From: Georgenia sp. TF02-10
GTDB lineage: Bacteria; Actinomycetota; Actinomycetes; Actinomycetales; Actinomycetaceae
Assembly: GCF_022759505.1 (NCBI RefSeq)
Contig: NZ_CP094289.1
Span: forward strand, 3,100,001-3,164,000
DNA length: 64,000 nt
Direction of reading: 5' to 3'
A program made the position numbers and the translations under genes. Below the pieces are notes generated by a model that saw nothing but the letters and a program-made list of their open reading frames with translations, did no database searches and was not told the DNA's origin. Each line of letters begins with the position of its first letter. Position 1 is the stretch's first letter. Below are positions 34,215-56,765 of this stretch, piece after piece.

Positions 34215-34615
34215 CAGGTGGGTCCTCTCAGGGTCGGTCTCGGTGGCGGTGGCGGGGAGGGCCAGTGGGAGATGAGGACGTCGATGTAGGCGGCGTCCTC
34301 CGCTGCCCGCCGCTCGGCCTGCGTGGCTCGGTCCTCAGCGACGGCGGCCCTGGCCTCGGCGCGCTCGACGCGGTCGCGGAGGTCGGTGATGTCGCGGCGG
34401 GACTGCTCCTGGTCCTCCCGGAGGGAGGTGATGATGTCCCGGAGCCCGTCGATGTCGGCGGACCTGATCTCGGACCGCAGCCGCTCGGTGGCCTCGACCG
34501 CGGTGGTCTTCTCGATGGGGGCGCGGCGGCGGTCCTGGCGCCACATGACGAGGGCGCCGATGCCGCCGGAGCCGAGGATGGCGGAGACGATGACGGCGGT
34601 GTCAGCGACGCTCAT
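34214..34615 (-). CDS. Membrane-anchored coiled-coil phage protein
   Basis: 133 residues: one N-terminal membrane helix (VADTAVIVSAILGSGGIGAL), then a long charged coiled coil (residues 40-110, e.g. ITDLRDRVERAEARAAVAED) and a proline-rich end. This is the look of spanin-like, LysB-neighbour or secondary holin proteins between tail and lysis genes; the exact role is unknown. It carries a protospacer for CRISPR spacer 36. Confidence 0.6.
   Translation of the reverse strand: MSVADTAVIVSAILGSGGIGALVMWRQDRRRAPIEKTTAVEATERLRSEIRSADIDGLRDIITSLREDQEQSRRDITDLRDRVERAEARAAVAEDRATQAERRAAEDAAYIDVLISHWPSPPPPPRPTLRGPT
34451..34483 (-). other. Protospacer-like site of CRISPR spacer 36 (28/33)
   Basis: Minus strand matches the spacer at 13599-13631 with five mismatches. 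The PAM position reads AGC, not AAC. It lies in the coiled-coil lysis-region gene. Confidence 0.8.
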
Positions 34616-35112
34616 GCCCGCGGTGCCCCGGCCCCGTCGTCGTGCCGCGCGGTCTGCTCGATGGCGGTCTCGGCGTCCCGCTCCACCCGGTACAGGGCCA
34701 GGATGCGGAGCACCGCCCCGGTGACCATGACCGCGGCGAGGGACACGGACACGAGGGAGGAGGGGAAGGCCGCGTAGGTGGCGGCGAGGTAGCCGCCCCA
34801 GGCGGCCGCGCCGAGGAGCCAGCCGAGGCGTTCGACGGCGAGGGCGGTGGTGAGCCACCGGCCGGGCCAGAGGAGCCCGGCGAGGGCGAGCACCCCCGCG
34901 GCGAGGATCGCCCCGGCCAGGGCGAGGACCAGCCAGTCGGGGAGCATCTCCACGGACGGGGACGCGGAGGCCCCGGGGGCGAGGTGGGCGACGAGCAGCA
35001 TGACCCCTATGACGACCCACCAGAGCGCGACGGCCGTCTCGAACGGGTGCGCGAGGATGTGGTCGGCGGCGGTGGGCGGGTTGTGGGTGGGGCGGCGGGC
35101 ACGATCGGGCAT
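34612..35112 (-). CDS. Multi-pass membrane protein (possible second holin)
   Basis: 166 residues with four predicted membrane helices: ALWWVVIGVMLLVAHLA, LVLALAGAILAAGVLAL, LGWLLGAAAWGGYLAATY and VSVSLAAVMVTGAVLRIL. It overlaps the next gene by ATGA and lies in the lysis cassette. A holin or anti-holin role is inferred only from topology and place. Confidence 0.6.
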   Translation of the reverse strand: MPDRARRPTHNPPTAADHILAHPFETAVALWWVVIGVMLLVAHLAPGASASPSVEMLPDWLVLALAGAILAAGVLALAGLLWPGRWLTTALAVERLGWLLGAAAWGGYLAATYAAFPSSLVSVSLAAVMVTGAVLRILALYRVERDAETAIEQTARHDDGAGAPRA

Positions 35113-35138
35113 CGTCAGGCTCCCCTCTCGGTATGTGG

Positions 35139-35327
35139 TCAGTCGCCGGTGCCGGCATCGACGGCGGCGGTCAGGTCGGCGGGGTCGCCGCCGCCGGCGA
35201 CGAACCGCGCGGTGAGGTCGGCCACCTGCTGGGGGATTCCCGCGAGGTCGGCGCGGCGCTCCTGCTCGGTGAGGACCTCGACGCGCAGCGCGTTCAGGTC
35301 GTCGTCGGTGAGGGCTTTCAGGTCCAT
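35139..35327 (-). CDS. Small acidic phage protein (62 residues)
   Basis: Start MDLKALTDDDLNALRVEVLT fixed by AAGGGA eight bases upstream. A helical acidic protein ending AAVDAGTGD. Small proteins of this kind often follow the receptor-binding protein gene in actinophages, with unknown role. Confidence 0.65.
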   Translation of the reverse strand: MDLKALTDDDLNALRVEVLTEQERRADLAGIPQQVADLTARFVAGGGDPADLTAAVDAGTGD

Positions 35328-35346
35328 CTGGTTTTCCCTTTCCGGG

Positions 35347-36540
35347 TCAGCCGGGGACACCCGGCAGTACGGCAGGCCAGGCCTGTTTGGTCTGGTAGAC
35401 CACGAAGAGCCGTCGCGGGTAGGTGTCGTCCGACGTCCGGTCGATCTGCACCAGACTGGACGCCACCCGCGCGTACATCAGTTTGGTGCTGTCGGCATAG
35501 CAAGGTGCGGGAATCAGGCTGACCGAGGGCACGAACCCGGTGGGGAGCGTCCAGAGAGTGTTCCCCGTCGCGGCGCTGGCGACCGCGCCGTCGACACTCA
35601 GGTAGACCGTGTCCCCGGTCCGGCGGATCCCGATCGGGTGCGTGCTGCTCCCCGCGGTCCACCCGTTCTCCAGCGCGGCCGCGGGGATCTTCCGCCACCC
35701 GGTGTCGCGCAGCAGCAGCAGCGCCGGGTCGGTCTTCGGCAGGTACTCGGGGTGCGTGTGTCCGGTGTCGGCCTTCCCGGCCAGTGCCTCGGTCAGCCCC
35801 GCCACGTCACCCTGCGCGTGCTGGTGGGCCGCCGGCGGGAACGCCGCGGGCACCTGGTCCAGGTCGCCCCATGGGTGCCTATGGGCTGCCGGGGGGTAGG
35901 TGGCCGGCTTGCCCGTCACCTCGCCCCAGGGGTGCGTGTGGGCGGTGCTGGCCTTGCCCGCCAGGGCGGTCTCGACGGCCGCGGTGTCGGCCTTGCCCGC
36001 CAGGGCGGTCTCGACAGCCGCGGTGTCGGCCTTGCCGGCGAGGGCGGTATCGACCTGCGCCAGGTCGTCGCTGACCGCCTCGTCCACCACACCCGACAGC
36101 GCGCCCCGGAAAGCCGAGTCCGGGTCGCCGGCGACCTCGGCCATGGTCTCGTCGGTCACCGGCCCGGTGCGGACGATGATGCCCTCACCGGCGGCGGGGG
36201 CGTCGACCAGGACCTCGCGAAGGTCCACGGGCGTGCCGTCCTCCTTTACCTGATCCATCGTCGGGGCCAGGTGGTAGGTGGCGCCGGAGGACTGGTCCCG
36301 CCAGGTGTAGGTCACCCCCACGGGGACCGCGCCGCCCCAGTCCACCGGCACCAGGTCCACCGTGGCGGTCCCGTCGGCGCCGGACAGCACCTGCGCGGGG
36401 CCGACCATCACGTCCGGCGCCGCGGTGAACCACCGCCGGGCCTGCGGGGTGACGCGGCCCAGGTGCCGGGTGGGGACGCCGGCGACGTCGGTGGGCCGGT
36501 ACCTCACGGTCACGACCGGGGTGCCGTCGGGGAAAGCCAT
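35347..36540 (-). CDS. Tail fibre / receptor-binding protein
   Basis: 397 residues. The N-terminal part is beta-rich. A repeated shaft occupies the middle: LAGKADTAAVETA three times around residues 168-200, then HTHPWGEV, HRHPWGDL, HQHAQGDV and HTHPEYLP, histidine-rich repeats typical of trimeric phage fibres. The C-terminal 110 residues form a globular tip (GDTVYLSVDGAVASAATGN) that would bind the host surface. The internal repeats could recombine to change shaft length. Confidence 0.8.
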   Translation of the reverse strand: MAFPDGTPVVTVRYRPTDVAGVPTRHLGRVTPQARRWFTAAPDVMVGPAQVLSGADGTATVDLVPVDWGGAVPVGVTYTWRDQSSGATYHLAPTMDQVKEDGTPVDLREVLVDAPAAGEGIIVRTGPVTDETMAEVAGDPDSAFRGALSGVVDEAVSDDLAQVDTALAGKADTAAVETALAGKADTAAVETALAGKASTAHTHPWGEVTGKPATYPPAAHRHPWGDLDQVPAAFPPAAHQHAQGDVAGLTEALAGKADTGHTHPEYLPKTDPALLLLRDTGWRKIPAAALENGWTAGSSTHPIGIRRTGDTVYLSVDGAVASAATGNTLWTLPTGFVPSVSLIPAPCYADSTKLMYARVASSLVQIDRTSDDTYPRRLFVVYQTKQAWPAVLPGVPG

Positions 36541-36554
36541 GGGTGGTCCTCTCG

Positions 36555-37196
36555 TCAGCGGACGATGTTCTCGGCGGCCAGGGCGTCCTTGATGGGCGTC
36601 ACCACGTCGCCGGCCGTGGCCGCGTAGTCGATGGCGGAGTTGGCGGCCGAGGCGGCCCCGCGGAGCTTAGTGACCTCGGTGCGGAGCTGGCCCACCAGGT
36701 CGATCAGGCCCCGGATGGCCTGGTTGTTGGCCTTGACGTTGGAGTGGATGTGGCGGACGTGGTTGTTCAGCGCCCGGATGTCGGCCCGGTTGTCGTTGAT
36801 CGCCGTCAGGGTCACGGAGCCCGCGTTGCCCCGGTCGTTCGGCCCCGACGGCTGGGCGAACACCGGGTCAGACGGGGCCGACGGCAGCGTCCCGCTCGGG
36901 ACCGTGGCCTTGCTGGGCTTGGGTCCCATCTCGGCGGTCACCGCTGGCGGCTCGTGCCAGGACAGGTTGGCCGTGACCTCCCAGACCCCGCCGGTCTTGA
37001 CCAGCTCCACGGTGTCCCCGTCCCGGACCGCCTTCGCGGTGGAGCGCAGGCGGGCGTTGCGGGCGTGACCGTCCACCACCACCGTGACGGCGAAGGCGTC
37101 CCGGGCGCCGGTGACGGTGCCGCGGTAGGTGCCCTGCTGGCCCTTGCCGGACCTCAGGGACTCGGCCAGGGCGGTCGTGCCCGGCTCGGTGCTCAC
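36555..37196 (-). CDS. Minor tail / baseplate-associated protein
   Basis: 213 residues from GTG 37196, preceded by GAGGAGG. The N-terminal half contains an OB-like beta domain (YRGTVTGARDAFAVTVVVDG; AVRDGDTVELVKTGGVWEV), as in actinophage minor tail proteins. A low-complexity linker follows, then a helical region (NDNRADIRALNNHVRHIHSN). It overlaps the next gene by GTGA. It contains a protospacer for spacer 2 (36861-36893). Confidence 0.65.
   Translation of the reverse strand: MSTEPGTTALAESLRSGKGQQGTYRGTVTGARDAFAVTVVVDGHARNARLRSTAKAVRDGDTVELVKTGGVWEVTANLSWHEPPAVTAEMGPKPSKATVPSGTLPSAPSDPVFAQPSGPNDRGNAGSVTLTAINDNRADIRALNNHVRHIHSNVKANNQAIRGLIDLVGQLRTEVTKLRGAASAANSAIDYAATAGDVVTPIKDALAAENIVR
36861..36893 (+). 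other. Protospacer-like site of CRISPR spacer 2 (27/33)
   Basis: Plus strand matches the spacer at 11527-11559 with six mismatches, all between positions 10 and 21. PAM AAC. It lies in the minor tail protein gene at 36555. Confidence 0.8.
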
Positions 37197-39118
37197 AGCT
37201 TGCGCCTCCTCGTGGTGGTCGTGGTCTGCATGCCCGAGCCGTCGGCGGGCAGGTCCAGCGACCAGGACACGACCCGCCGGGGCCCGGCCACCCCGGCGCG
37301 GGCGCGTTCGAGGACGATGGTGTCGCCCGGGTCCAGGTCGGGACGGGGCAGGTGGGTGACGGTGACCTGCTCGACCGGCTGCTGGAGGTCGGCCAGGGTG
37401 GCCCGGGCCAGGTCGTCGGCCTGCGCCTGGGTGGTGATCTCCCCGGACTCGACCCGCTTGTGGTAGGTGTGCCCGTGCCCGATCCACAGCGGGGAGGACG
37501 GGTCGTCGTCGGTGGCCACGGCCGTCAGCGGCGGCTCCACGTCCGGGCTGGTGCTGACCACGGTGACCTTGTTGGCCAGGTCGTCCAGGTCCAGCCCCAC
37601 CCGCACGTCGGAGAACGTCGCCCCGGCGCCCTCGGTGAAGACCGCCACCGGGACGGCGCCGGTGGGGATCGGCTCGACGGTAACCACGCCCATCCGGTCC
37701 ACGTAGGCGACCATCCCCGCGGCGGCCGCGATGCGCTCCACGTCCGCCCACGGGTCCCCGCCCGGCTCGCCCGGCTCGTAGTCAGTGGGCAGCCGGTGAC
37801 CGGTGGGGGTGATCGCCGTCGGCGCCCACGGGGCCTGGGAGGCCAGGATCATCGCGATGGCGTCCGAGCAGGTCATGCCGCCCACCTGGACCGCCGTGTC
37901 CCAGGTGGCCCGCTTGATCTCCGCCACCGCGTCCGAGCCGGTCACGGAGAAGACGATGGGCCCGTCGGGCTGGTCGTCCAGGTCGGGGACCTCCAGGTAG
38001 TAGGTGCCGACCGGGACCTCGCCCCACGTGCCGTCCGGGAGCTGCAGCCGCCACCACACCCGCGCCCGGTTGTGGGCCAGGGGGTGCAGCAGGTCCCCCG
38101 GCGTGCGGGGGAAGAGCGTCTCGTCGGTGACCGTCATGGACAGGCCCCACCGGATGGACGCCCCGGAGTCGCAGGTGACGCTCGCGGACTCCACCCCGGG
38201 GTGGGTCGCCGCCTCCCCGCCGAGGGTGGCGAGCACCGTGCCGTCCTCGGCGACGATCTCCACCCGGGCGGACTGCTCGATCTCCCGCCCGTCCAGCGCC
38301 TCCTGGAAAGCCTCGGAGACGACGAGCTCGCGCCACGGGATGGGCGGCGGTGCCGGGGCGATGGTCACCTGCAGGGTCGGCACGCCGGGCAGTGTGACCG
38401 GCACGACCAGCGCGCCGGCGACGGTCAGCGGCGGGGCCGTACCGGTCCCCGAGAGGCTGGCCCCGCCGGGGAGGGTGACGGGCACGTCCAGCGGCTCGGC
38501 GGTGATGACCCGGGGGGCCACCACGTCCACCGCGCCCGGGAGCGTGACCGGCACCGTGAAGGGCTGGACGGTGATGGACTGCTCGACCTCGACCGCGCCG
38601 GGCAGCTCGACCGGGACCAGCAAGGCGCCGGCCGGGTCGAGGTACTTCGTCGCCTCGTACTCGATGGTCAGGGTCGCCGCGGGCGGGGTCTCGACGGTGC
38701 CGATCTGGGACAGCTTGCCGGTGGCAGTGAGCTTGAAGCCGAGGGCGTTGCCGGCGCGCCAGCCGGGGCGGGCCACGATGGCCCGGACCGCGGCGGTGAC
38801 GTCGACGCGGTAGTCCTGCCCGGCCGGGGTGGCCGTGACCGGGTGGCCGGACGGTGCGGTGTGTCCGTTGTCCGCGAAGGGCGGCTGGTCGTCGGTGGTG
38901 AAGACCTCGACCGTGAACGGCTCGGCCGCGCCGGTCGCCCGGACATCCAGGATCGCGGACGAGACGAGCGCGCCGGGGGTGACCGGGACGCCGACGAACC
39001 GCAACCCGGCGGGGCCGCTGGTTGTGGTGGTGTTGCCGGTGGACCGGTAGGCGCCGGAACTGGACGCCCAGGAGCCGTCGTCGGCGGTGTCGGTGATCTG
39101 CCGGACGAACGTCGCCAT
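37193..39118 (-). CDS. Large minor tail protein
   Basis: 641 residues. Residues 1-155 form a beta-rich module (TFVRQITDTADDGSWASSSG). A repeated stretch follows at about 165-260, in which blocks of the type VPVTLPGAVDVV, VPVTLPGGASLS and VPVTLPGVPTLQ recur four times. The C-terminal 380 residues resemble siphovirus tail-tip/hub proteins (QPDGPIVFSVTGSDAVAEIK; ADVERIAAAAGMVAYVDRMG). It probably forms part of the tail tip complex. The VPVTLPG repeats are unusual for this family. Confidence 0.7.
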   Translation of the reverse strand: MATFVRQITDTADDGSWASSSGAYRSTGNTTTTSGPAGLRFVGVPVTPGALVSSAILDVRATGAAEPFTVEVFTTDDQPPFADNGHTAPSGHPVTATPAGQDYRVDVTAAVRAIVARPGWRAGNALGFKLTATGKLSQIGTVETPPAATLTIEYEATKYLDPAGALLVPVELPGAVEVEQSITVQPFTVPVTLPGAVDVVAPRVITAEPLDVPVTLPGGASLSGTGTAPPLTVAGALVVPVTLPGVPTLQVTIAPAPPPIPWRELVVSEAFQEALDGREIEQSARVEIVAEDGTVLATLGGEAATHPGVESASVTCDSGASIRWGLSMTVTDETLFPRTPGDLLHPLAHNRARVWWRLQLPDGTWGEVPVGTYYLEVPDLDDQPDGPIVFSVTGSDAVAEIKRATWDTAVQVGGMTCSDAIAMILASQAPWAPTAITPTGHRLPTDYEPGEPGGDPWADVERIAAAAGMVAYVDRMGVVTVEPIPTGAVPVAVFTEGAGATFSDVRVGLDLDDLANKVTVVSTSPDVEPPLTAVATDDDPSSPLWIGHGHTYHKRVESGEITTQAQADDLARATLADLQQPVEQVTVTHLPRPDLDPGDTIVLERARAGVAGPRRVVSWSLDLPADGSGMQTTTTTRRRKL

Positions 39119-39151
39119 GCTTCACCCCCTCTCGGAGACGGAGAGGTTGGG

Positions 39152-39550
39152 TCAGGAGCCGAGGCGGAAGATGCCCGGCACGGGCCACCGAGCTGTCACG
39201 TCGGACCCGTTCAGCGACAGCTCCGTCTGCTCGGCCCCGGCGCCGAAGTTGGACCGCCGGACGATCAGCCTGGTGCCCTGGGCGATGACGATAGCCTTGA
39301 CCGTCGCCGCCCCGGTGGCGGCCGTCCAGGTCGTGGGCGAGGCGTTGAACATGCCGCCCTCGACCACCTTGCCCTCCACCGTCGTGGTCGCCAGCCTGGC
39401 CGCGGCCGGGATGTCGCTGACGAGGGTGTGGTTGTCGTAGTCCGGCTCGTAGGCGCCCGAGACGAGGATGGCCGTGACCTCCCCGTCCATCAGGTCCACG
39501 TCGCCGCTCATCATCGCGTCGAGCGCCTTGGTGTACATGCCCTCAGCCAT
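39152..39550 (-). CDS. Small tail-region virion protein
   Basis: 132 residues starting MAEGMYTKALDAMMSGDVDL. The segment DGEVTAILVSGAYEPDYDNH followed by LVSDIP is found in a recurrent family of actinophage structural proteins encoded beside tail-tip genes. Exact position in the virion is unknown. Confidence 0.65.
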   Translation of the reverse strand: MAEGMYTKALDAMMSGDVDLMDGEVTAILVSGAYEPDYDNHTLVSDIPAAARLATTTVEGKVVEGGMFNASPTTWTAATGAATVKAIVIAQGTRLIVRRSNFGAGAEQTELSLNGSDVTARWPVPGIFRLGS

Positions 39551-39559
39551 CGGTGCTCC

Positions 39560-41518
39560 TCATCGGTAGGTGGCGGCGTCCTCGGGGGACATGCCGTACA
39601 GGCCAGCGGTCTCGACCGGGTGGGTGACCGGCGCCCGGGTCGCGGCGCCGGGGGCGACCGGTGCCTGCTCGACCCACGCCACCGGGATGCGCCGCCGGGT
39701 CAGGGCGTGCTGCACCGGGCGGGCGGTCGAGAGCTCGGCGGACACGTCGAAGCACAGGGCACCCGCGTCGTGCAGGTCGGGCCCGTCGCCGCGCTCGGCG
39801 GGCCACCGGACCAGCAGCGGCTCCCCGGCGTGCAGCATCGCCAGCAGCGCCTCCTGCTCGGCCCCGTCCAGGGCCGCCAGCTCCATGGACCCGGCGCGCC
39901 CACGAAGGCCGCCGTACAGGACGCGGGAGAAGGTGTCCCCCGCGCCGTCGAAGATCGTCACGGGCCGGCGGTGGGTGTGCTCCCCGTCGCTGACGATGTA
40001 GACCTCCCGCCAGGTGGTCACCGGGTCGGCTGCCGCCGCCAGGTAGGACCGGGGGTCGGTAGAGACCACGGGCGCGGAGATGCCCCACTCGGAGCGGAGG
40101 TACTGCCCGTCCAGCACCTTGGCGGCGTCCGCCCGGTACGCCGTAGGGATGCCGTACGGCGCGAAGACGTCGGTGAAGGCGACGGTCCCGGACCCGCCGG
40201 TGGTGACGGCCGTGACCGGCACCCACAGCCCCTGGCTGGTCACCCGCTCCACCGTGACCCGGGTGCCCGGGGCGGCGGTGACGCCGACGCGGATGCCTCG
40301 GCGGCCCGGGAGGGCCTCCACGGACGGCACCGGCGGCGCCGTCCACGCCACGGTGAACGGCCGGGTCGCCCAGGACGACCAGGAGCCGCCGGTCTGCTGG
40401 ACCCGCACCTGCGCCTCGTAGCCCCCGCCGTTGGCCCAGCCCAGGACCGGGACGGTGTAGAAGGCCAGCCGGCCGGGGAGGACGCCGGAGTCGTGCAGGA
40501 CGGTCCCGGCCTGGACGATGCGGACCTGGGCGGCCGTCTGCTGCCCCCGCGGGGTCGTCGCCGTCCACGCCACCTGCGGGGTCAGGTCGTCCTGGACGGT
40601 GCCCGTCGGGGCCGTCACCTCCGCCGTCGGCGGGGTCACGGGCGTGAAGGACGAGGCGGGCGACCACGGCGACCACTGCCCGTCCACCTTCTCGCGGGTG
40701 CGGACCTGCCAGGACCGCAGCAGCCCGGCCGTGAACCGCCCGGCCGGGATCGTCACGCCCGACGTCGCCGACAGGTTCGTCGTGGCCTGGGCGACCAGCG
40801 CCGAGGTCGAGGCCGACCAGTACAGCCACTCCCCGTCCCCGGCGTCCACCCGCCACTGGTAGGCGTCCTGCGCGCCGCCGGCCACGACCGGCCGGTGCTG
40901 CCACAGGAAGTCGATGCTGCCGGTGTTGGTCACCTCGTCCCCGGCGCCCGGGGCCAGCACCACCGGCGCCGACGGACCCGCCGGGGGCAGCAGCTCCACC
41001 GCCACGCCCGACACCCGCCCCGGCACGCCGAGGGTGCCGCCGGCGGCGGACATCACGTCCGCCGCGGCGACCTTGCCCGACCAGGCGCCGAGGATCGTGG
41101 CCTTGGTCAGGGTCGCCGCCGGACCCCACGGCACCCCGGACGGCAGGCCCGGGGAGCGCGCAGGATCCCAGCCCGCCGCCATGACAGCACCGCCGCCGGG
41201 CTGGACCGTCACCTGCGCGAGCCCGGACCGGACCACCCCGACGCCCGCAGTGTCGCGGTACACCCGCAGCTGCGCCAGGCCCTGCACGGTCGGCGCCGGG
41301 TCGCTGGCCCCGGTGAGGACCCGGGAGGACACCCGCGCCCGCAGCGACTGCGCCAGCCCCCCCACAGTGAAGCCGTCCACCACCCGCCAGCCCGGCAGCG
41401 CCCGGGGCCCACGGTCCGAGGTCGAGGCCTCCACCAGGACCGCCAGGTCCCCGGCCCGTACCCCCGCCGGCCACGACGGCGACGCCGACCAGCCGGACGC
41501 GCCCACCACAGTGGTCAC
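39560..41518 (-). CDS. Tail-tip protein with fibronectin-III-like repeats
   Basis: 652 residues from GTG 41518 behind GAGGAGG, overlapping the tape-measure stop by GTGA. Several Fn3/Ig-like units are visible from about residue 200: YQWRVDAGDGEWLYWS, SWQVRTREKVDGQWSPWSP, YEAQVRVQQTGGSWSSWA. The C-terminal 170 residues (GDTFSRVLYGGLRGRAGSM) are of distal-tail type. It probably bridges the tape measure end and the fibre. It carries protospacers for spacer 11 (40893-40925) and, more loosely, spacer 16 (40649-40681). Confidence 0.75.
   Translation of the reverse strand: MTTVVGASGWSASPSWPAGVRAGDLAVLVEASTSDRGPRALPGWRVVDGFTVGGLAQSLRARVSSRVLTGASDPAPTVQGLAQLRVYRDTAGVGVVRSGLAQVTVQPGGGAVMAAGWDPARSPGLPSGVPWGPAATLTKATILGAWSGKVAAADVMSAAGGTLGVPGRVSGVAVELLPPAGPSAPVVLAPGAGDEVTNTGSIDFLWQHRPVVAGGAQDAYQWRVDAGDGEWLYWSASTSALVAQATTNLSATSGVTIPAGRFTAGLLRSWQVRTREKVDGQWSPWSPASSFTPVTPPTAEVTAPTGTVQDDLTPQVAWTATTPRGQQTAAQVRIVQAGTVLHDSGVLPGRLAFYTVPVLGWANGGGYEAQVRVQQTGGSWSSWATRPFTVAWTAPPVPSVEALPGRRGIRVGVTAAPGTRVTVERVTSQGLWVPVTAVTTGGSGTVAFTDVFAPYGIPTAYRADAAKVLDGQYLRSEWGISAPVVSTDPRSYLAAAADPVTTWREVYIVSDGEHTHRRPVTIFDGAGDTFSRVLYGGLRGRAGSMELAALDGAEQEALLAMLHAGEPLLVRWPAERGDGPDLHDAGALCFDVSAELSTARPVQHALTRRRIPVAWVEQAPVAPGAATRAPVTHPVETAGLYGMSPEDAATYR
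40893..40925 (-). other. Protospacer-like site of CRISPR spacer 11 (30/33)
   Basis: Minus strand matches the spacer at 12076-12108 except at positions 7 to 9. PAM AAC. It lies in the Fn3-repeat tail-tip gene. Confidence 0.9.
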
Positions 41519-46658: not shown

Positions 46659-46659
46659 C

Positions 46660-46809: not shown

Positions 46810-46899
46810 GACGGACTCCTTCTACGGGACGGGACCGGGTGTTGCGGGTTGGGGTCCGGTCGGCCGTACGACACCCGTAGCGCACGGCCGACCGGAGCA

Positions 46900-47574: not shown

Positions 47575-47610
47575 GGGTGATCCCTTCTGGGGTTCGGGAG
47601 AGGGTGGGGG

Positions 47611-48269: not shown

Positions 48270-48272
48270 GGG

Positions 48273-48608: not shown

Positions 48609-49087
48609 CAGGGCACCTCGCCGGACACTGGTAGGGTCTCGGGCGACCGCTGCCCCTGCGGCTCGTGGCCCGGGGTGGCGTTGACGACCACGCCGGCGAG
48701 CGGATTGGTCGAGGTCGACGACAGGCCGGTCATGTCGACCGTGTAGGCGCCGCTGCTGGCGCAGAGGATCTGGAGGCGCTTGACCTCCGAGGGCCAGAAG
48801 AAGGAACCCTTCGGTGCGCCGTCGCCCCGCTGGGGCTCGACGGACTTCTGGAAGGGTCCGGCGCCCACCTGGGTGACGACCCGGGTGTCGGCGCCGTGCC
48901 GGCGTGGGATCGCCTGGCGCAGCAGGGCCCGGATGGCGTCGCGCTTCGGGTCCTCTGGGGCCAGGGCGGTGATGCAGGGGGCGGCGAGGATGGCTTCCGC
49001 CTCGGCGTCCTCGATCATCGCCAGGGCCTTGGCCTCGGGGATGTCCGCGTACGGGGCGAGGTCTCGTGGCTCGACGAACCGACCCAT
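48608..49087 (-). CDS. Head-tail connector (gp6-like) protein
   Basis: 159 residues from ATG 49087, eight bases after AGGAGG. The N-terminal 75 residues are helical (IPEAKALAMIEDAEAEAILA; RDAIRALLRQAIPRRH), the pattern of DNA-packaging/head-completion adaptors. The C-terminal half is beta-rich. It would sit below the portal. Confidence 0.7.
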   Translation of the reverse strand: MGRFVEPRDLAPYADIPEAKALAMIEDAEAEAILAAPCITALAPEDPKRDAIRALLRQAIPRRHGADTRVVTQVGAGPFQKSVEPQRGDGAPKGSFFWPSEVKRLQILCASSGAYTVDMTGLSSTSTNPLAGVVVNATPGHEPQGQRSPETLPVSGEVP

Positions 49088-49102
49088 CCTCACCGCCTCC
49101 TG

Positions 49103-49276
49103 CTACCGAGCGTCCGGCTTGGCGGCCGGCTTGCGTGGCCGCGCCGGCCGCTTCACCGGCGGCTTCTTCTCGTCCTTGGCCTGGACGGCCTTCCACCCGA
49201 GGCGGGAGAGGGCCGCCACGCCGGCCGGCTTGATGTCGCGCTCCTCACCCTCGGGCGAGCGCATCAGCGGCGACAT
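49103..49276 (-). CDS. Small basic protein after capsid gene (57 residues)
   Basis: MSPLMRSPEGEERDIKPAGV with a Lys/Pro/Arg-rich tail (KKPPVKRPARPRKPAAKPD). Overlaps the capsid stop by ATGA. Such small head-region proteins may be decoration or capsid-interior factors; the role is not known. Confidence 0.6.
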   Translation of the reverse strand: MSPLMRSPEGEERDIKPAGVAALSRLGWKAVQAKDEKKPPVKRPARPRKPAAKPDAR

Positions 49277-50211
49277 CAGGCGCCCGTAGCCGCCGGGGTG
49301 ACCACACCGGCCGGGTAGGTGCCGCCGAGGCGGGTCATCGGCACCGCGGCCTGGAAGCCGACCCGGAAGACGACGCGCATGGCCTTGGAGTCCTGCTGCA
49401 TGAGGTTCAGGACCACGCGCCCCTCGGCGTCGGAGATGACGCCCTCGCTGAAGAGGTCGTAGGTGACGTCCTGGCGGATGCCCACCACGAACTTCGACCA
49501 GTCGACGGCCAGGCCCTCGGCGACGTCCGCGTCCCAGGCGCCGTTCCGAACCTCGTCCAGGGTGTACCCGAAGAGGGTGGCGTTGCCGCCCTGCGTGGGT
49601 GCGCCGAAGAGGTACTGGCCGTTGGCGTCCTTGAGCCCGCGGAGCTGCCAGTTCAGGCCGGGCCGGGTGGCGAAGGCGTTGACCGCGAAGCCGCCCTCGG
49701 ACGCCGCGCCGGCGACCGAGGCGAACGCGTCGGCCAGGTTGTTCGTGGCGGACAGCTGCGCGACGTTGCCGGCGGCGATGGCGCCCGGGACGATGGCGGT
49801 CGGCCACGAGGCCGGCTTGTCGTCCCCGAACAGGGCAGCCCCGTCGACCTTCTTCCCCAGCGCCTCCCGCAGGAGCGGCTTGACCTGGTCCCACAGCGGG
49901 ACGTTGGAGTCGTCCACCACCGCGTTCGGGATCGGCACGATGACCGCCAGCTCCTCGGCGGTCATCGTGATGCCGCGCCAGGAGACGTTGGTGGTCTGCT
50001 TGAGCCCGGTGTCGCCGTCCACCCAGTAGGCCTCGGGCAGGGTGGCGAGCACCGGCTGCTTGGACTTCTTGGACGACATGAGCGTCTTGCGCGCCCGGGT
50101 CAGGACGACCGACTCCTCGGGCGCGGTCTGGATGATCTCGTTGATCTGCTGGTCGGGGATGAGCTGGTCGGTGACCTCGGCCCGCCCGACGATCTCGGCG
50201 AAACCCGCCAT
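49276..50211 (-). CDS. Major capsid protein (HK97 fold)
   Basis: 311 residues. Phage capsid pattern: N-arm, PVLATLPEAYWVDGDTGLKQ, the E-loop/P-domain helix AELAVIVPIPNAVVDDSNV-like stretch, GQYLFGAPTQGGNATLFGY and the C-terminal strand MRVVFRVGFQAAVPMTRLGG. AAGGAG six bases before ATG. Immediately after the scaffold gene in transcription order, as expected. Confidence 0.9.
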   Translation of the reverse strand: MAGFAEIVGRAEVTDQLIPDQQINEIIQTAPEESVVLTRARKTLMSSKKSKQPVLATLPEAYWVDGDTGLKQTTNVSWRGITMTAEELAVIVPIPNAVVDDSNVPLWDQVKPLLREALGKKVDGAALFGDDKPASWPTAIVPGAIAAGNVAQLSATNNLADAFASVAGAASEGGFAVNAFATRPGLNWQLRGLKDANGQYLFGAPTQGGNATLFGYTLDEVRNGAWDADVAEGLAVDWSKFVVGIRQDVTYDLFSEGVISDAEGRVVLNLMQQDSKAMRVVFRVGFQAAVPMTRLGGTYPAGVVTPAATGA

Positions 50212-50226
50212 GATCTACTCCTTCTG

Positions 50227-50733
50227 TCAGGTTCGGGCGAGCTGCTGACGCAGCCAGTCGCCCTGCGGTGGGATGTCGCTGCCACCCTGGGCAGCGTTGG
50301 GGCGGGGAGCCCTGGGACCTTCCTTGGACCGCGCCACGAGCGCCTGCACCTGCTTCAGCAGCCGCTCGGGGTCGTCCGCCGTCAGGAACAGCTCGGCGCT
50401 CTCGTCGTCGATCTCGTGGAGCTGCACCAGGTGCTGGCGCAGCGCGGCGGCGACCTTCGCCGGCACCTGCTGCGCCTCAGCCTCGGCGCGCTCGGCGCGC
50501 TCAGCGGCCTTCTGCACCTCGGTCTTGTTCGCGTCCTCGATCTCGTCCAGCCGCGACGCCTTGGCCTTCAGGTCGTCGTAGTCGGCAAACTTCGACCGCT
50601 CACGCTCCAGGCGCTGACCGATCCTTCGGTTCAGCTCCTCCTGCGAGGTGATCGGCTCGAAGGCCTCCGCCTGCTCGGTCTGGTCGGCCGTCTGGTCCTG
50701 GTCCGGGGTCGGCTCGGTCGTCGGTTCGGTCAT
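50227..50733 (-). CDS. Capsid scaffolding protein
   Basis: 168 residues from ATG 50733. Acidic N-terminus (TEPTPDQDQTADQTEQAEAF), a long coiled coil (LERERSKFADYDDLKAKASR through AERAERAEAEAQQV), and a C-terminal helix for capsid binding. This is the DUF4355-like scaffold layout, one gene before the capsid. Confidence 0.85.
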   Translation of the reverse strand: MTEPTTEPTPDQDQTADQTEQAEAFEPITSQEELNRRIGQRLERERSKFADYDDLKAKASRLDEIEDANKTEVQKAAERAERAEAEAQQVPAKVAAALRQHLVQLHEIDDESAELFLTADDPERLLKQVQALVARSKEGPRAPRPNAAQGGSDIPPQGDWLRQQLART

Positions 50734-50810
50734 GTCAGGTCTCTCCCAAGGTCCGAGCTGTTGACCGCCGCTCGTGCGCGTAGGTCCACGCCCGGGGTCG
50801 GGCGGGAAGA

Positions 50811-51497
50811 TCAGATGGTGTCGAGGTAGACGCGGATGGTGGCGTTGTGCCGGGCCCGCTGCTCGGGGCCCATGCGGCTCGTGCGCTTGGACGCCTCGTA
50901 GGCGCCGACGTCCACCTCGGGGGCGTCCGGGTCCCACGACGGGGCGGCTGCGCAGTTGCACGAGCCGTGCGAGGCGAAGTGCACCGTCGACTGCTTGTAG
51001 ACCGCCCCTCGGCCCGCGAGAAGTCGGCAGAACCGGCAGGCGCCGCCGCGGGTGACCCGCTGCCAGCCGGACGCCCGGGGGTCCCGGTCGGTCGAGGTGA
51101 CGATGGTCTGCCGACCCGCCGCGAGCGCGTACTTCCCGGCCTTGGACGACAGGGTGAGGAGCGCATCACCCGGGGTGGGCGTCCAGAGGGCGCCGGCCGC
51201 GCGGCGGACCGTGCCCTCGACGGCGTCCGTGTAGGGCGAGTCCTGCATGACCGCCCGGTACCGGCCGGGGACACGCTCGACCGCCCGCTGCTCGTCGTAC
51301 CAGTCGGCCGCGACGGCCGCCGCCGACTCGCCGTAGGTGCTGACCAGGTAGGGCACGAACTCCAGCAGGGCGTCCCGCGCGGCCTCGGGCCGCCCCAGGT
51401 CCAGCGACGCGAAGAAGGCGGCCAGGTCCCGTTCGACCAGCGTCCGGATACCCACCTGGGCCAGGCGCAGCCGCTCGGCGTCGGCCGGGGAGACCAT
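50811..51497 (-). CDS. MuF-like minor capsid protein
   Basis: 228 residues. The C-terminal third has CRFCRLLAGRGAVYK and FASHGSCNCAAAPSWD, the Cys/His pattern of phage MuF/VG15-type minor head proteins. It follows the portal gene by four bases. These proteins are packaged with the procapsid and may help DNA ejection. Confidence 0.8.
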   Translation of the reverse strand: MVSPADAERLRLAQVGIRTLVERDLAAFFASLDLGRPEAARDALLEFVPYLVSTYGESAAAVAADWYDEQRAVERVPGRYRAVMQDSPYTDAVEGTVRRAAGALWTPTPGDALLTLSSKAGKYALAAGRQTIVTSTDRDPRASGWQRVTRGGACRFCRLLAGRGAVYKQSTVHFASHGSCNCAAAPSWDPDAPEVDVGAYEASKRTSRMGPEQRARHNATIRVYLDTI

Positions 51498-51500
51498 GGG

Positions 51501-53081
51501 CTACGCGGTCTCCAGCTCGTCGGCCTCGGACACCGGCAGCCGCAGGGACGTCGGGATCGCGCCGGTGAACTTGATGCCCGCCAGGCCGAGGCGCTGCGCC
51601 GCGTCCTGAGGGTCGACGCCGGCGCGGATGAGGACGTCGAGGGCGTCCGCCTTGGCCTTCAGCGCGCCCGCCTCGGCCACCGGGTCGGGCTGCGCGGTCG
51701 CGGGGCCGGCGGCGGCGACGAGGGTGTCGAGCCGCTGGTTCGCGGCCTTCCGGCGCTGCTCGCCCAGGGCCCGCTCCGCCTGCCGCTCGTCCAGCCCCAG
51801 CAGCTCCAGACCGACCTCGGTCTCCGCGAGCCACGGCACCGCTGCCAGTTGCTTCTGGCCGGCGTCGGCGGTGGCCGACGTGGTGGGCGTCGCGGCGTTG
51901 CGCCACCGGTTCGCCACCCGGCGGTGCAGGTCGGCCGGGGCCGTCTTGTCCCGGATCATCAGGGCCAGCCGTGCGACCTCCATCCACGCCCGGCCGAACC
52001 CCACCTGGCGGCGCTCGGCGCGCTTGACCAGCCGGGCCTCCATTGCGCGGATCGCGTCCGCCGAGGCTGGGTTGTCCGACTGGAAGCCGAAGTAGGTGAC
52101 CGGCTGGCCCACCTCGGTGGCGAGCAGCTGTGCCCAGCCCTTCACCTGCTCCAGGAACGGCTGAGGGGAGCCCACCTGGAGCTGCTTGATGTCCGGCATC
52201 AAGCCCTCGTCGTCACGGTCGATCGCCAGCGCATGGCCGGCCACGATCCGCCAGCCGGACGTCGGGTTGCCGTTCGCGTCCACGAAGGCGTCCGGGCCGC
52301 GGCCGAGCAGGGTCAGCTGAGGGATGCCGTAGAACTCGCGGTTGCCCTCCATGCCGAGCACGGTCCGGACCGCGGCGTCGCAGTAGTAGCGCACCGCCTT
52401 GGTGATCTCGGACTTGCCCTCGGTGCGCGAGGCCCGCGGGCGGTTCGGCATCCGGGCCACCGGAACCCGGTCGAGCCTGTGCTCGTCCCGGTCCGTCACC
52501 ACCCACGTGCCGCTGCGGCGCTGGAGGGTGATCGTCTGGCCGACCACGTCCAGCACGACGTCGGTGACCTGCCCGTCCTTGACCCCGGTCACGGTCACGG
52601 CCGAGGTGAGGCGCCGCGAGCGCGCGTCCCACACCCCGGTCGTGGTCCGCGCCGAGTGGATCGTCACCAGCGGCGACGGCTCGCCCTCGCGGCCGGTGCC
52701 GACCCGGACGAAGGAGACCCCGTACAGCAGGGAGTCCAGGTGCGCCAGGCCCGACTCGACGTCCAGCGCGTTGTCGGTGTAGACCTTCCGCAGGCCGAGG
52801 TCGTCGTCGACCTCGTCCCACCCGTACCAGTCCAGGCGCTCCTCCAGCACGTCCACCGTGGTCGCCGCCCAGCCCACGACCGGGCTGATCCGGGCGGCGA
52901 TCTCGGGCGGCATCGCGATACCCATGTGCCGGACCCGCTGCTCGGCCTCGTAGTAGGCGTCCTTCTCGGCGTTCGACATGGCGTACTGGTCGAGCCTGGC
53001 GAGCAGCAGCGCCAGCTCGCGCTGCTCGTCGTCGTGCAGCGCCTGGAGCGTCAGCAGCGTTGCCGCGGGGACGACCGTCAC
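51501..53081 (-). CDS. Portal protein (SPP1 gp6 type)
   Basis: 526 residues. Features: helical N-terminus, PVVGWAATTVDVLEERLDWY, central wing domain, TYFGFQSDNPASADAIRAME (a strong family signature) and a long helical crown. It forms the dodecameric ring through which DNA is packaged and ejected. It overlaps the terminase stop by ATGA. Confidence 0.9.
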   Translation of the reverse strand: MTVVPAATLLTLQALHDDEQRELALLLARLDQYAMSNAEKDAYYEAEQRVRHMGIAMPPEIAARISPVVGWAATTVDVLEERLDWYGWDEVDDDLGLRKVYTDNALDVESGLAHLDSLLYGVSFVRVGTGREGEPSPLVTIHSARTTTGVWDARSRRLTSAVTVTGVKDGQVTDVVLDVVGQTITLQRRSGTWVVTDRDEHRLDRVPVARMPNRPRASRTEGKSEITKAVRYYCDAAVRTVLGMEGNREFYGIPQLTLLGRGPDAFVDANGNPTSGWRIVAGHALAIDRDDEGLMPDIKQLQVGSPQPFLEQVKGWAQLLATEVGQPVTYFGFQSDNPASADAIRAMEARLVKRAERRQVGFGRAWMEVARLALMIRDKTAPADLHRRVANRWRNAATPTTSATADAGQKQLAAVPWLAETEVGLELLGLDERQAERALGEQRRKAANQRLDTLVAAAGPATAQPDPVAEAGALKAKADALDVLIRAGVDPQDAAQRLGLAGIKFTGAIPTSLRLPVSEADELETA

Positions 53082-54565
53082 AGGACCACCACCTTCCCGC
53101 TGCTGCTGCCGCTCCGGGGTCGTCGCTTCGCCGTCTCTGCCGCGTGCCGGGCCAGCGTCACCGCGTCCAGCGCCGTCACGTCACCGCCTGGCACGACCGC
53201 CTCCCAGCCCCACCCGCCGTAGACGCCGATCTTCCGCTTGCCCGCCACCCGCACCTGCGCGTCCAGGCCCGGCTGGCCCAGGTGGGTCACCGTGGCCTCG
53301 ACGACCGCCCGCAGCATCCCCGCGTGCGCTGTGATCGCCTCGTCGGTCGTCACCACGTGCACCCGCCGCCGGGACACCCCAGCGGCCACCAGGGCGTTCG
53401 CCAGGTCGCCCGCGCCGGCCTTGCCGTCCACCACGATCTGCGCCGCCCTCCGCCACCGGGTGGCCAGCCAGTCCACCAGTGGCGCCACACCGTCCGACAG
53501 GGACGACACCCCGAGCGACACGACGTGGATCGGGCCCTCGTCCGGCCGCAACGCCACCGCACAGCTCACGCGCTCGCCGTCGGCGGAGAACTTCACCCCG
53601 AAGGCGACCGTGCCGTCCACGGGCGCCTGGTCGGACGGGACGGCCAGAGCGTCCCAGACGTCTTGATTGATGAGCACGCCCGGGCCCGACACGTCGTCCC
53701 AGATACCGAACGCCTCGCGGTCGAAGTCGCCCGGGCCCGTCAGGAGCTTCTTGAGCCGAGCCACCGCCTTCGGGCCCGTCCGCAGCGGGTACGACGGGTT
53801 CGCCTTCCGACGCTGAGCCTCGTCGTCCCACCGGGCGCCGCGGTCCGCCGAGAACTCGACGTACAGCACACCCTCGGAGTCGCCCGCCAGCGCCTCGGCG
53901 CGGAGCCGCTTGAACACCTCAGCGTCGTCCGACGGCTTCGGCGGCGTCCCCATCAGGATCACCTGCGGGTTCGTCGCCTGGTTCATCGTCGGCGCCAGGT
54001 CGGCCATCGCCCGCTCGGAGAGAATCTGCGCCTCGTCCAGGACGAGCCGCCGAACCTTCGCCACGCCGCGCACCGCGCCGGACTCGCGCGCCTTGAACAG
54101 GATGCGCGAGCCGTTGCGGAACGGGATCGCCTCGTTGCCGGCGCCCGTCGTGATGGCGTCAGGGTCGATATGGGCCCGCATCTGCGGCAGTTCTGCCATG
54201 ACCTTGAGTGCCATGAAGGACTCGCGCGTTACCGTGAAGTGGTGTGCGGTCCAGACGGCCAGCGTGCCGGGATTGATGATGCAGTCCGCGAACAGCAGGG
54301 CGCCGACGTCGTAGGTCTTGCCGGCCTGGCGGCAGATCGAGATGACGATCGTGTCCGCCGCATACGAGCCACTCGCGTCCTTGGCGAGGATCGCCGTGTT
54401 GAGGTCGGCCTGCCAGGGGTCGAACCCAATACTGACCGTCCGGCACACCTCGCGGACCGACGGCCATCCGGTCGAGACGATGCCGTCCGGGAGGATCAGG
54501 TGGCGAGCATCAGGAAGCAGGCCATGCCGCGTCGGGGGTGCCTGCGGCGGAGCCGACGTCGTCAC
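53078..54565 (-). CDS. Terminase large subunit
   Basis: 495 residues. The ATPase has a Walker A-like CRQAGKT at 78-84 and Walker B RRLVLDEAQ with D177-E178; coupling motif MGTPPK follows. The C-terminal nuclease domain contains FGVKFSADGERVSCAVALRP and VVDGKAGAGDL with acidic residues of the RNase H-like fold. It cuts and pumps DNA into the head. It overlaps the small-subunit gene by about 55 bases. Confidence 0.92.
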   Translation of the reverse strand: MTTSAPPQAPPTRHGLLPDARHLILPDGIVSTGWPSVREVCRTVSIGFDPWQADLNTAILAKDASGSYAADTIVISICRQAGKTYDVGALLFADCIINPGTLAVWTAHHFTVTRESFMALKVMAELPQMRAHIDPDAITTGAGNEAIPFRNGSRILFKARESGAVRGVAKVRRLVLDEAQILSERAMADLAPTMNQATNPQVILMGTPPKPSDDAEVFKRLRAEALAGDSEGVLYVEFSADRGARWDDEAQRRKANPSYPLRTGPKAVARLKKLLTGPGDFDREAFGIWDDVSGPGVLINQDVWDALAVPSDQAPVDGTVAFGVKFSADGERVSCAVALRPDEGPIHVVSLGVSSLSDGVAPLVDWLATRWRRAAQIVVDGKAGAGDLANALVAAGVSRRRVHVVTTDEAITAHAGMLRAVVEATVTHLGQPGLDAQVRVAGKRKIGVYGGWGWEAVVPGGDVTALDAVTLARHAAETAKRRPRSGSSSGKVVVL

Positions 54566-54788
54566 CGTTCTCCTCAGCGTCCAGAGCCGCGATCTCGTCG
54601 ACGATGTTCACCAGGCGCAGCGACAGTGAAGCCATGTCCCGAGGCGGTACACCCTCGTCCAGCCGGGCGGCGATCGAGTCCCGCAGCGCCACCAGCAGGT
54701 CACGCCGACTGCTGGCCGCGGCCTTGCTGATCGCGCCGCCGGGCGGCTCAGGCGCAGGAAGCGCTCGCAGGTTCCGGCGTGCGGCCAT
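54510..54788 (-). CDS. Terminase small subunit
   Basis: 92 residues from ATG 54788, eight bases after GAGGAGGT. Basic helical N-terminus (MAARRNLRALPAPEPPGG), then RRDLLVALRDSIAARLDEGV and RLVNIVDEIAALDAEEN. This short helical pattern, ahead of the large subunit, is common in actinophages. It recognises the packaging site. Confidence 0.75.
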   Translation of the reverse strand: MAARRNLRALPAPEPPGGAISKAAASSRRDLLVALRDSIAARLDEGVPPRDMASLSLRLVNIVDEIAALDAEENGDDVGSAAGTPDAAWPAS

Positions 54789-54982
54789 GACCGAGCACCT
54801 CCTCTCGGCGAGCAAGCGCGAGCACTCGCACCTCGTCATCGGTTCGCGCGGCAGGGCCTCGCAGCTGGGGTCGGGCTTCTCTAGCCACCGCTAGCTAGGC
54901 GGGGCTGGTCTGATTCTTGCAGTACATCGTGGTGGAAAACGTCTGGCGGCCTCGCGTGGAACGAGTCGTGTGTATGTGCTCG

Positions 54983-55363
54983 CTATGCCTGGCGGGGCGA
55001 GGACCGGCCGGGGATGGGGGCTCCCTCCCCACCCCCGCAGACGAGAGCCAGCCAGTTCGGGTCGACGGGGAAATCGTCGGCGGCCGCGACGGGCACAGGC
55101 ACCTTGGTGCGGTTGCGCTGGCCGTTGCACTTGCGGCAGATGACGCGGAGGTTGTCGGCGTCGTCGGTGCCGCCTTGTCCGTGAGGGATGATGTGGTCGG
55201 TCTCGGCGCTGTTGGGCAGCAGTGGTGTGTCGTAGTCGAGCTCGGCGCCGCACGGCCTGCCGTCGACGCCTGGGCAGTGGGTGAGTCCGCTGCGCCTCGC
55301 TTGGGTCTTGACGCGCTTGCTGTTGCGCAGGTAGGTGGCCGTGCCGGTGCGTGACGTGGCCAT
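54983..55363 (-). CDS. HNH endonuclease
   Basis: 126 residues. The HNH core is visible: TDHIIPHGQGGTDDADNLRV then CRKCNGQRN, with a supporting CPGVDGRPC cysteine pair upstream. HNH enzymes encoded just before terminase assist terminase cutting in cos-type phages, which suggests cohesive-end packaging. A 194-base gap separates it from the small-subunit gene. Confidence 0.88.
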   Translation of the reverse strand: MATSRTGTATYLRNSKRVKTQARRSGLTHCPGVDGRPCGAELDYDTPLLPNSAETDHIIPHGQGGTDDADNLRVICRKCNGQRNRTKVPVPVAAADDFPVDPNWLALVCGGGEGAPIPGRSSPRQA

Positions 55364-55585
55364 GTGACGGCTGGCCCCTCACCTCTCGCGCTCGTGCTCC
55401 TGGCGGGACCCGAACCCGCACGCCTGTCGGCACCGCTGCTTGAGGGCGGCGCGTCTGCCCGGTTCCACCACAGGAGCGAGTGACGCCCCATCGAAGGCTC
55501 GAAGGGACGCCATGTCCTTCGGCGCATAAGCCCATGCAGCCAGGGTCGATCGGCGCCCATGTGGGTCGGTCCCGGGCCCGCACTA

Positions 55586-55763
55586 CTCCCGGGGCCGGAT
55601 CGTTGCCCTACCCCCGGGGGTGCTTCTGCAAACCCCCCCTCCCGGGGGTTCAGGCTCAACACCCCTCCCGGGGTGCTGCTCGATGTACCCCTCCCCCGGG
55701 ATGCACGAACGCCCCGCTCGGGGGGAGGCGGGGCGTCGGGCTGTAGGGACACTTGTCCCTGCA
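55586..55763. promoter_or_regulatory. CCCGGG-repeat region and palindromic operator (possible packaging/control site)
   Basis: The 439-base gap 55364-55802 has no convincing gene. Within it, five short palindromes with a CCCGGG core recur every 24-27 bases (e.g. ACCCCCGGGGGT at 55610, ACCCCTCCCGGGGT near 55660). A 9-base-pair hairpin ACGCCCCGC/GCGGGGCGT follows at 55709-55736, then a near-perfect operator-like palindrome TGTAGGGACA-CT-TGTCCCTGCA at 55742-55763. Located at the head of the packaging operon, it could be cos/terminase binding sites, a terminator, or the late-gene control region. Role inferred from position. Confidence 0.5.
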
Positions 55764-55802
55764 TTGGAATGACAGTACCACGAGCGAACTACACCCGTGC
55801 AA

Positions 55803-55964
55803 CTACGGCACGCGGAGCAGCCCGGCCACGGCATCACGGACGCGGTACCAGCTTGCGGCGAGGAAGTGGACCACCGGGTTATCGGGGTGCTCCTCGAAGA
55901 TCACGACAGCCCCGCAGACCGTCACGACGCAGATCATGATCCCGAGCAAGTCACCCCACGTCAC
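55803..55964 (-). CDS. Single-pass membrane protein (53 residues)
   Basis: GTG start eight bases after GGGAGG. One strong membrane helix (LLGIMICVVTVCGAVVIF) and a basic C-terminus (SWYRVRDAVAGLLRVP). Last gene of the early leftward module. Function unknown. Confidence 0.55.
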   Translation of the reverse strand: MTWGDLLGIMICVVTVCGAVVIFEEHPDNPVVHFLAASWYRVRDAVAGLLRVP

Positions 55965-56033
55965 GGCTTCATCCTCCCGCAGAACTTGCACCGGGTGTCG
56001 GGCACGAGGTGCCCGAGGTGCCGCCGGGTCGCT

Positions 56034-56765
56034 TCATGCGCTCTGCTCCTCGGTCTCGTTCTTGCCGGTCACGTCCTCGGTCTTGTACCGCACGTTCCTG
56101 CCCTCGCCCTTCCTGCGCCAGTGCCTGCGCTTGGCCCACTGGCGGACCAGGTCCTCGCTGACGTTGAGCAGCCGGGCCGCGCGCTCGACGGTCACCCACT
56201 CGGACCGGGCGCCCCAGCGGGACCACTGCTCGTGCCCGACCCGGTCGCGGCACGCGGGGTTGGAGCAGACGAGGTCGCCGTCGAAGCCGGGCCCGTCGAT
56301 CACCGCCTCATAGGTTCCCGGGCAGGTCACGACCAGGCACGGGGACCCCGTCCGCACCACCCGGTCGTGCCGCCTGGCGAGCCGGCGCATCATCCGCAGG
56401 TGTTCCACGGCGTCGAAGCAGAGCGCGTAACGGAGCATCTCGTCGGGGTGGTTCTCGATCCGGTCGGCCCACCTGGCGGCCAGCCTGAGCCGGCCGGGCG
56501 TGTGGTCGGGGACCTTCCCGATGCCCGGCTCTTCGTCGATGAGGACGTGGGCGACGAACTCGGCCCAGGAGTCGACCTCGGCGACGGCCCGGTCGTGCTC
56601 GTCGGCGTCGATGATCTCGGTGACGCCGGGCGGCACGCGGCTGCCGGGCTTGCCAGGCTTGCGACCGCCGGGGTCGGGGACGACCGGCGGCAGGGCCGCG
56701 ACCGTCTCGTAGGTGCTGGCGAGCTCGTCCAGCACCACCTCCAGGGGCAGATCATCGAGGCTCAA
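56034..56765 (-). CDS. Phage DNA-binding protein with zinc site and MerR-like HTH
   Basis: 243 residues from TTG 56765 behind GGAGGGTGA. The middle has CLVVTCPGTYEAVI and CSNPACRDRVG, two cysteine pairs for a zinc ribbon. The C-terminus has an excisionase/MerR-type winged helix (VTVERAARLLNVSEDLVRQW then RRHWRRKGEGRNVRYKTEDV). It may be a transcription regulator or a replication/packaging helper; position at the end of the early module suits a late-gene activator. Contains the spacer 37 protospacer. Confidence 0.7.
   Translation of the reverse strand: MSLDDLPLEVVLDELASTYETVAALPPVVPDPGGRKPGKPGSRVPPGVTEIIDADEHDRAVAEVDSWAEFVAHVLIDEEPGIGKVPDHTPGRLRLAARWADRIENHPDEMLRYALCFDAVEHLRMMRRLARRHDRVVRTGSPCLVVTCPGTYEAVIDGPGFDGDLVCSNPACRDRVGHEQWSRWGARSEWVTVERAARLLNVSEDLVRQWAKRRHWRRKGEGRNVRYKTEDVTGKNETEEQSA
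56062..56094 (-). other. Protospacer-like site of CRISPR spacer 37 (29/33)
   Basis: Minus strand matches the spacer at 13659-13691 except at positions 4, 6, 19 and 32. PAM AAC. It lies near the 3' end of the early gene at 56034. Confidence 0.88.

Follow-up and report, generated by a model that had tools for sequence, protein, structure and literature searches.

Spacers of a Georgenia type I-E CRISPR array as probable memory of relatives of the resident prophage, in a locus with a split cas8e

The chromosome of Georgenia sp. TF02-10 carries, within one window of 64,000 nucleotides (the whole stretch of DNA analysed; NZ_CP094289.1, positions 3,100,001 to 3,164,000), a type I-E locus of clustered regularly interspaced short palindromic repeats (CRISPR) and a prophage that is matched by seven distinct spacers of that locus. 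We consider it probable that the array is a memory of related temperate actinophages, that the resident prophage is another member of this group, and that the lysogen survives as a frameshift in cas8e disables interference. A first-pass annotation made from the sequence had described five imperfect matches, of spacers 5, 11, 37, 36 and 2 with 3, 3, 4, 5 and 6 mismatches, with AAC as protospacer adjacent motif (PAM) at four of the sites and AGC at the spacer 36 site. When the window, its array masked, was scanned without gaps, these mismatch numbers and PAMs were reproduced exactly. Coordinates below are those of the window.

11438..14388, plus strand: type I-E CRISPR array, 49 repeats and 48 spacers, 42 of them distinct
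29437..64000, no strand given: prophage, continuing past the window to the right attachment (att) copy, attR, at 68775-68809 on the scale of the window (L048:4775-4809); from att repeats and gene content
46109..46140, plus strand: target of the identical spacers 26 and 30; 0 mismatches, PAM AAC
45941..45972, minus strand: target of the identical spacers 24 and 28; 1 mismatch (position 30), PAM AAG, 0 residue changes
11711..11742, plus strand: spacer 5 in the array
42998..43029, plus strand: target of spacer 5 in the tape measure gene; 3 mismatches (positions 7, 8, 27), AAC, 0 residue changes
12077..12108, plus strand: spacer 11 in the array
40893..40924, minus strand: target of spacer 11 in a tail gene; 3 mismatches (positions 6, 7, 8), AAC, 0 residue changes
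13660..13691, plus strand: spacer 37 in the array
56062..56093, minus strand: target of spacer 37; 4 mismatches (positions 3, 5, 18, 31), AAC, 3 residue changes
13600..13631, plus strand: spacer 36 in the array
34451..34482, minus strand: target of spacer 36; 5 mismatches (positions 5, 18, 20, 21, 26), AGC, 1 residue change
11528..11559, plus strand: spacer 2 in the array
36862..36893, plus strand: target of spacer 2; 6 mismatches (positions 9, 15, 17-20), AAC, 1 residue change

The tape measure label that had been given to the target gene of spacer 5 was confirmed, and the label "tail tip" for that of spacer 11 is reasonable, its PHROG match being a virion structural protein. The target gene of spacer 36 adjoins the endolysin gene and showed a single weak match to a PHROG of unknown function, the target gene of spacer 37 showed a weak MerR-like match alone (E 1.8e-4), and the target frame of spacer 2 sits among tail genes without a PHROG match. 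The targets of spacers 26/30 and 24/28 are 168 bases apart. Three of the seven targets lie on the plus and four on the minus strand, a distribution that is uninformative on priming.

The five imperfect matches are not chance. Nineteen 20-kb stretches of this chromosome (380 kb), scanned with the 42 distinct spacers, held no site with up to 6 mismatches, 4 sites at 7 and 20 at 8 mismatches. The 33.7 kb of prophage within the window held seven sites with up to 6 mismatches (0, 1, 3, 3, 4, 5 and 6), and no such site was found in the host part of the window (27.3 kb) or in the following 20 kb. Decoys scanned against the prophage (100 sets of 42 host 32-mers) gave on average 0.02 sites at 5 and 0.09 at 6 mismatches, and none below 5. 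Equally good matches to unrelated chromosomal genes, named in the first-pass annotation as the sign of chance similarity, were searched for genome-wide with spacer 11 (up to 3 mismatches) and a 26-base core of spacer 5, and neither matched anywhere in its own genome beyond array and prophage; for spacers 37, 36 and 2 this check rests on the 380-kb sample. The match of spacer 2 would be marginal if it stood alone. It is supported because its PAM is AAC, which precedes 0.5% of prophage positions (AGC precedes 1.6%), and because its mismatches are mostly silent.

The differences between spacers and prophage largely spare the encoded proteins. The six imperfect spacers together carry 5 residue changes where 15.9 were expected from random substitutions, and a value of 5 or less was obtained in 0 of 20,000 simulations. 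Per-spacer probabilities of so silent a set of changes were 0.0017 for spacer 5, 0.0025 for spacer 11, 0.0065 for spacer 2, 0.020 for spacer 36, 0.15 for spacer 24 and 0.76 for spacer 37. Translated in the prophage reading frames, spacers 5 and 11 give peptides identical to those of the prophage (KAGWDYIKSAV and TGSIDFLWQHR), and in each of them two of the three mismatches form a swap between the serine codons AGC and TCC, for which two base changes are needed. Enrichment of mismatches at third codon positions was not significant (11 of 22, P = 0.08), and the residue-level test was relied on instead. Because the mismatches are mostly silent, the set reads as diverged homologous genes, as expected of a memory of related phages; spacer 37 excepted, it mostly looks like homologous coding DNA under purifying selection. 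Protein-silence of this kind is a help in telling stored DNA of relatives from chance similarity where G+C is high, even at 5-8 mismatches.

The PAMs agree with the array itself. At all seven sites the third PAM base equals the last base of the preceding repeat, spacer 24 included, where a G stands with AAG. A final G replaces the usual C in seven repeats (starts 12170, 12230, 12474, 12718, 12779, 12839 and 13083), and the only spacer behind such a repeat with a located target is 24/28. The PAM there is AAG, which suggests that the final base of a repeat preserves a trace of the PAM. AAC is listed as a type I-E PAM for Bifidobacterium, and a last repeat base derived from the PAM is discussed for type I-E systems with AAG (PMC8482600). 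The Georgenia system thus resembles the Bifidobacterium systems in its AAC PAM, and those of that paper with AAG in a last repeat base that follows the PAM, but differs from the systems described there in its repeats, which mostly have a final C and AAC sites but in seven cases a final G, and in its split cas8e.

A further match in a related prophage also fits a memory of relatives. Ungapped scans of related loci (31, 8 and 7 loci, overlapping) yielded one site with up to 6 mismatches, that of spacer 14 in the tape measure gene of a related prophage in another genome of the family, G109 (L094:9798-9829; 5 mismatches, 10 of 10 residues conserved), and this motif was lacking in the resident tape measure near the corresponding place. 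It is one of two weaker cases, the other being spacer 16, that emerged when the spacers were compared at the peptide level with the prophage and 14 related loci; the control score for spacer 14 was also high there (55 vs 57) owing to a low-complexity frame. For spacer 16 a probable further target was found on the resident prophage:

40650..40681, plus strand: probable target of spacer 16 in a tail gene; 8 mismatches, 9 of 10 residues conserved, AAG

Spacers 33 and 48 also scored above control (50 vs 47 and 49 vs 41). Spacer 42 was rejected despite a score of 51 against 43, being of low complexity and, by coordinate arithmetic, out of frame. Silent mismatches, PAMs and spacer 14 together support the earlier suggestion that the spacers are immune memory of relatives, with the resident prophage a divergent member of the same family.

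The matching spacers are spread over the array, with 2, 5 and 11 near the leader, 24, 26, 28 and 30 in the middle, and 36 and 37 towards the trailer; encounters with the phage family were therefore probably repeated. We place the leader end at 11438, because cas2 lies upstream and the degenerate repeats, taken as those of the trailer, are at the opposite end towards 14388. The array would thus record a series of encounters with related temperate actinophages of one family. The five imperfect spacers would have been taken from relatives that encode near-identical peptides in diverged DNA, as the silent changes suggest, and the resident prophage would be another member of this family. In a working type I-E system, the five guides should mostly not cut the prophage and might at best prime new acquisition; they would be poor cutters because four mismatch their targets within the seed and spacer 2 does so at six positions beyond it. 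Cutting of the prophage would be expected from spacers 26/30 and 24/28. Survival of the lysogen would then be due to interference being switched off through the frameshifted cas8e.

All eight cas genes of a type I-E system (cas3, cas8e, cas11e, cas7e, cas5e, cas6e, cas1e and cas2e) were matched:

1860-11393, plus strand: type I-E cas locus, all eight genes by NCBIfam and PADLOC
1860..5096, plus strand: cas3 (Cas3e), by NCBIfam and PADLOC
5124..6775, plus strand: cas8e/cse1, split by a frameshift at about 5450-5475, with profile matches in two frames
6591..11393, plus strand: open frames of cas11e, cas7e, cas5e, cas6e, cas1e and cas2e, with near end-to-end profile matches; some true starts lie within the open frames

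Within Cascade, the cas8e product is responsible for PAM recognition and for recruiting Cas3. Its profile positions 1-104 matched at 5142-5459 and positions 108-475 at 5474-6658, in different reading frames. Cas8e is thus the one Cascade gene that is split, the others being open, which counts against activity of the system and not against its family membership. A second cas8e was not found in the genome. A cas8e match over the cut-off was present in 72 of 213 family genomes, and the Georgenia gene was the only one split between frames; in genome G162 the open frame was short, at 214 residues, and the gene may be truncated. At 5440-5480 homopolymers do not exceed 3 bases. A codon-usage scan for frame breaks over 464 kb returned 15 loose candidates including cas8e, and only cas8e and one candidate in L059 had both segments of at least 300 bases and an open overrun of at least 150 bases, a size threshold that was set after the list was seen. 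NCBIfam searches of the frames of L049, L052, L055, L059 and L061 showed no family split across two frames, although a short domain in L049 was near-whole in each frame. A sequencing error is unlikely as the cause of the split, and we infer from the assembled sequence that the frameshift is real and disables Cascade.

The prophage could also persist under an intact CRISPR system, the frameshift being a sequencing error or read through, if it encoded an anti-CRISPR that protects it. Anti-CRISPRs are poorly conserved, and several prophage genes are without a Pfam match. Cas mutation and anti-CRISPRs are both named as routes out of self-targeting in a review (PMC6990116), according to which self-targeting spacers have led others to anti-CRISPRs. 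We regard such protection as unlikely here. Cas8e is split in the assembly, its frame switches in a stretch free of homopolymers above 3 bases, comparable frame breaks are few in the 464 kb scanned, and no acr or aca gene was recognised among the selected prophage genes scanned with Pfam, nor an anti-CRISPR by comparing two unknown genes by sequence with the PDB, both weak tests.

The first-pass annotation had viewed the prophage as an escape or divergent member of the family, with the altered PAM of spacer 36 as a possible escape mutation. In this case the spacers would derive from a direct ancestor, and changes in seed and PAM would have allowed lysogeny. In E. coli type I-E, positions 1-5 together with 7-8 make up the seed, and the base at each sixth position flips out (PMC5904413); PAM or seed mismatches can stop cutting yet permit priming, according to a preprint (PMC12871591). 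Seed positions are altered in spacers 5 (7, 8), 11 (7, 8), 37 (3, 5) and 36 (5, plus AGC); all six mismatches of spacer 2 lie outside the seed, and the sole mismatch of spacer 24/28 (position 30) falls on a flipped-out position. The proposed comparison with the seed showed no significant concentration over the five spacers, with 7 of 21 mismatches falling on the seed, which makes up 7 of the 32 positions (P = 0.16), although spacers 5 and 11 together have 4 of 6 in the seed (P = 0.023 for a pair chosen after seeing the data). Escape at the five sites cannot explain survival because the targets of 26/30 (perfect, AAC) and 24/28 (1 mismatch, AAG) remain with good PAMs. Moreover, 3-6 mismatches per site and two-base serine swaps fit long divergence better than single-step escape, and the AGC of spacer 36, one altered PAM among five, need not be invoked as an escape mutation at a site with 5 mismatches, one of them in the seed. 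A selected escape mutant is therefore quite improbable, and the split cas8e is the more likely explanation of tolerance. A related idea, that targeting by CRISPR favours multi-base codon swaps which alter the seed but not the protein in conserved structural genes, is similarly doubtful; it is based on spacers 5 (tape measure) and 11 (tail gene), in which positions 7-8 differ as AGC against TCC while the protein is identical. Chance similarity in G+C-rich coding DNA, which a G+C content of 73% and the four host sites at 7 mismatches would favour, has next to no probability given that 380 kb of host sequence held no site with up to 6 mismatches, the PAMs in place and the silent changes.

Several observations weigh against a memory of relatives tolerated through a split cas8e. 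The cas8e frameshift could be a sequencing error, and for none of the five spacers did the sequences searched give, among the matches listed, a closer match than the resident prophage. Of the 4 codons that differ in spacer 37, 3 alter the residue, and this spacer is without the silent signature. The PAMs also have exceptions: the spacer 36 site carries AGC and not AAC, the spacer 16 site AAG where the preceding repeat predicts a final C, and the spacer 14 site in the related prophage is preceded by GCA where the repeat predicts a final G.

Perfect matches in actinophages and prophages had been proposed as a check, and no perfect source phage was found. Relatives in IMG/VR were distant, with 59% and 50% identity for the portal, 30-63% for the best segment of the tape measure and 60% for the spacer 37 gene, and the tail protein had no match there. 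Portal and tape measure were not found among genome contigs, and codon-degenerate patterns of spacers 11, 24 and 26 hit 0 contigs. The pattern of spacer 5 hit 5 contigs of 46-52% G+C, but spacer 5 has 9-11 mismatches there and the hits were discarded; its core found one additional 3-mismatch site in the 213 family genomes, in G156. Matches of the whole array by blastn to phages and plasmids (best 40 of 82 phage and 25 of 325 plasmid records) looked repeat-like or weak and were not counted as spacer matches, in an output that does not separate the two kinds. Among the top named phages listed the portal identity was 52%. Rhodococcus phage ReT1v-2 (LC859274) resembles the prophage in this protein (52% identical over 88% of the query) and in the general gene order of terminase, portal, capsid, major tail and tape measure, but its DNA is too diverged, with no spacer match of up to 8 mismatches in 23.6 of its 39.2 kb. 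The genus was represented by one genome.

The Georgenia lysogen is of a known kind, here occurring naturally and with a type I-E system. It differs from Pseudomonas aeruginosa PA14/DMS3, whose CRISPR system is reportedly of type I-F, in being type I-E, in a genome as deposited, with seven distinct spacers of which one is perfect and one has 1 mismatch. The P. aeruginosa lysogens are alike in that the host's own spacer matches the prophage imperfectly and cas8 is frameshifted in some isolates, and unlike in stemming from laboratory evolution with one mismatched self-targeting spacer (PMC11406979). There, evolved lysogens carried cas7 or cas8 disruptions in 4 of 18 isolates, three of them frameshifts, and other isolates had spacer changes or large deletions. 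With seven distinct spacers and a split cas8e, the Georgenia locus may serve as a natural counterpart to laboratory lysogens that lose CRISPR function when a prophage is targeted. The combination of a natural type I-E system, seven self-targeting spacers and a split cas8e was not found described in the open-access papers searched, judged by titles and abstract openings.

Repeats of 29 bases, spacers of about 32 bases and an AAN-type PAM at six of the seven target sites (up to 6 mismatches) are those of a type I-E array. One of its 49 repeats, at 13632, is degenerate, has 28 bases and precedes spacer 37. At 12839-13326, four repeat-spacer units (spacers 24-27) are copied in tandem as spacers 28-31, a copy that doubles both guides best matching the prophage (24/28 and 26/30).

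The prophage is about 39.3 kb long and is bounded by a 35-bp direct att repeat, with attL at 29437-29471 and the right copy inside a transfer RNA (tRNA) gene, tRNA-Lys, predicted whole. It encodes integrase, holin, endolysin, tail, tape measure, major tail, capsid, protease, portal, terminase, RusA, primase/polymerase and exonuclease genes. With integrase, att repeats and a full PAM-flanked match (spacers 26/30, AAC, 46109) in an integrated prophage, the host has the genomic features of a self-targeted lysogen. The tape measure gene contains a tandem 132-base repeat in 2.3 copies (43037-43344). Matches of spacer 17 to three sites of the tape measure repeat (7, 8 and 9 mismatches; PAMs ATG, CTC and CTG; 5 residue changes each) were not accepted. 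ARAGORN reported a "tRNA-???" at 29437-29530, whose first 35 bases are the attL copy of the 3' end of tRNA-Lys and which is probably an att remnant and not a gene, a tRNA-His at 51849 opposite the portal gene, which is probably false, and a tRNA-Leu (CAA) at 55394-55477 within the prophage, beside an HNH gene.

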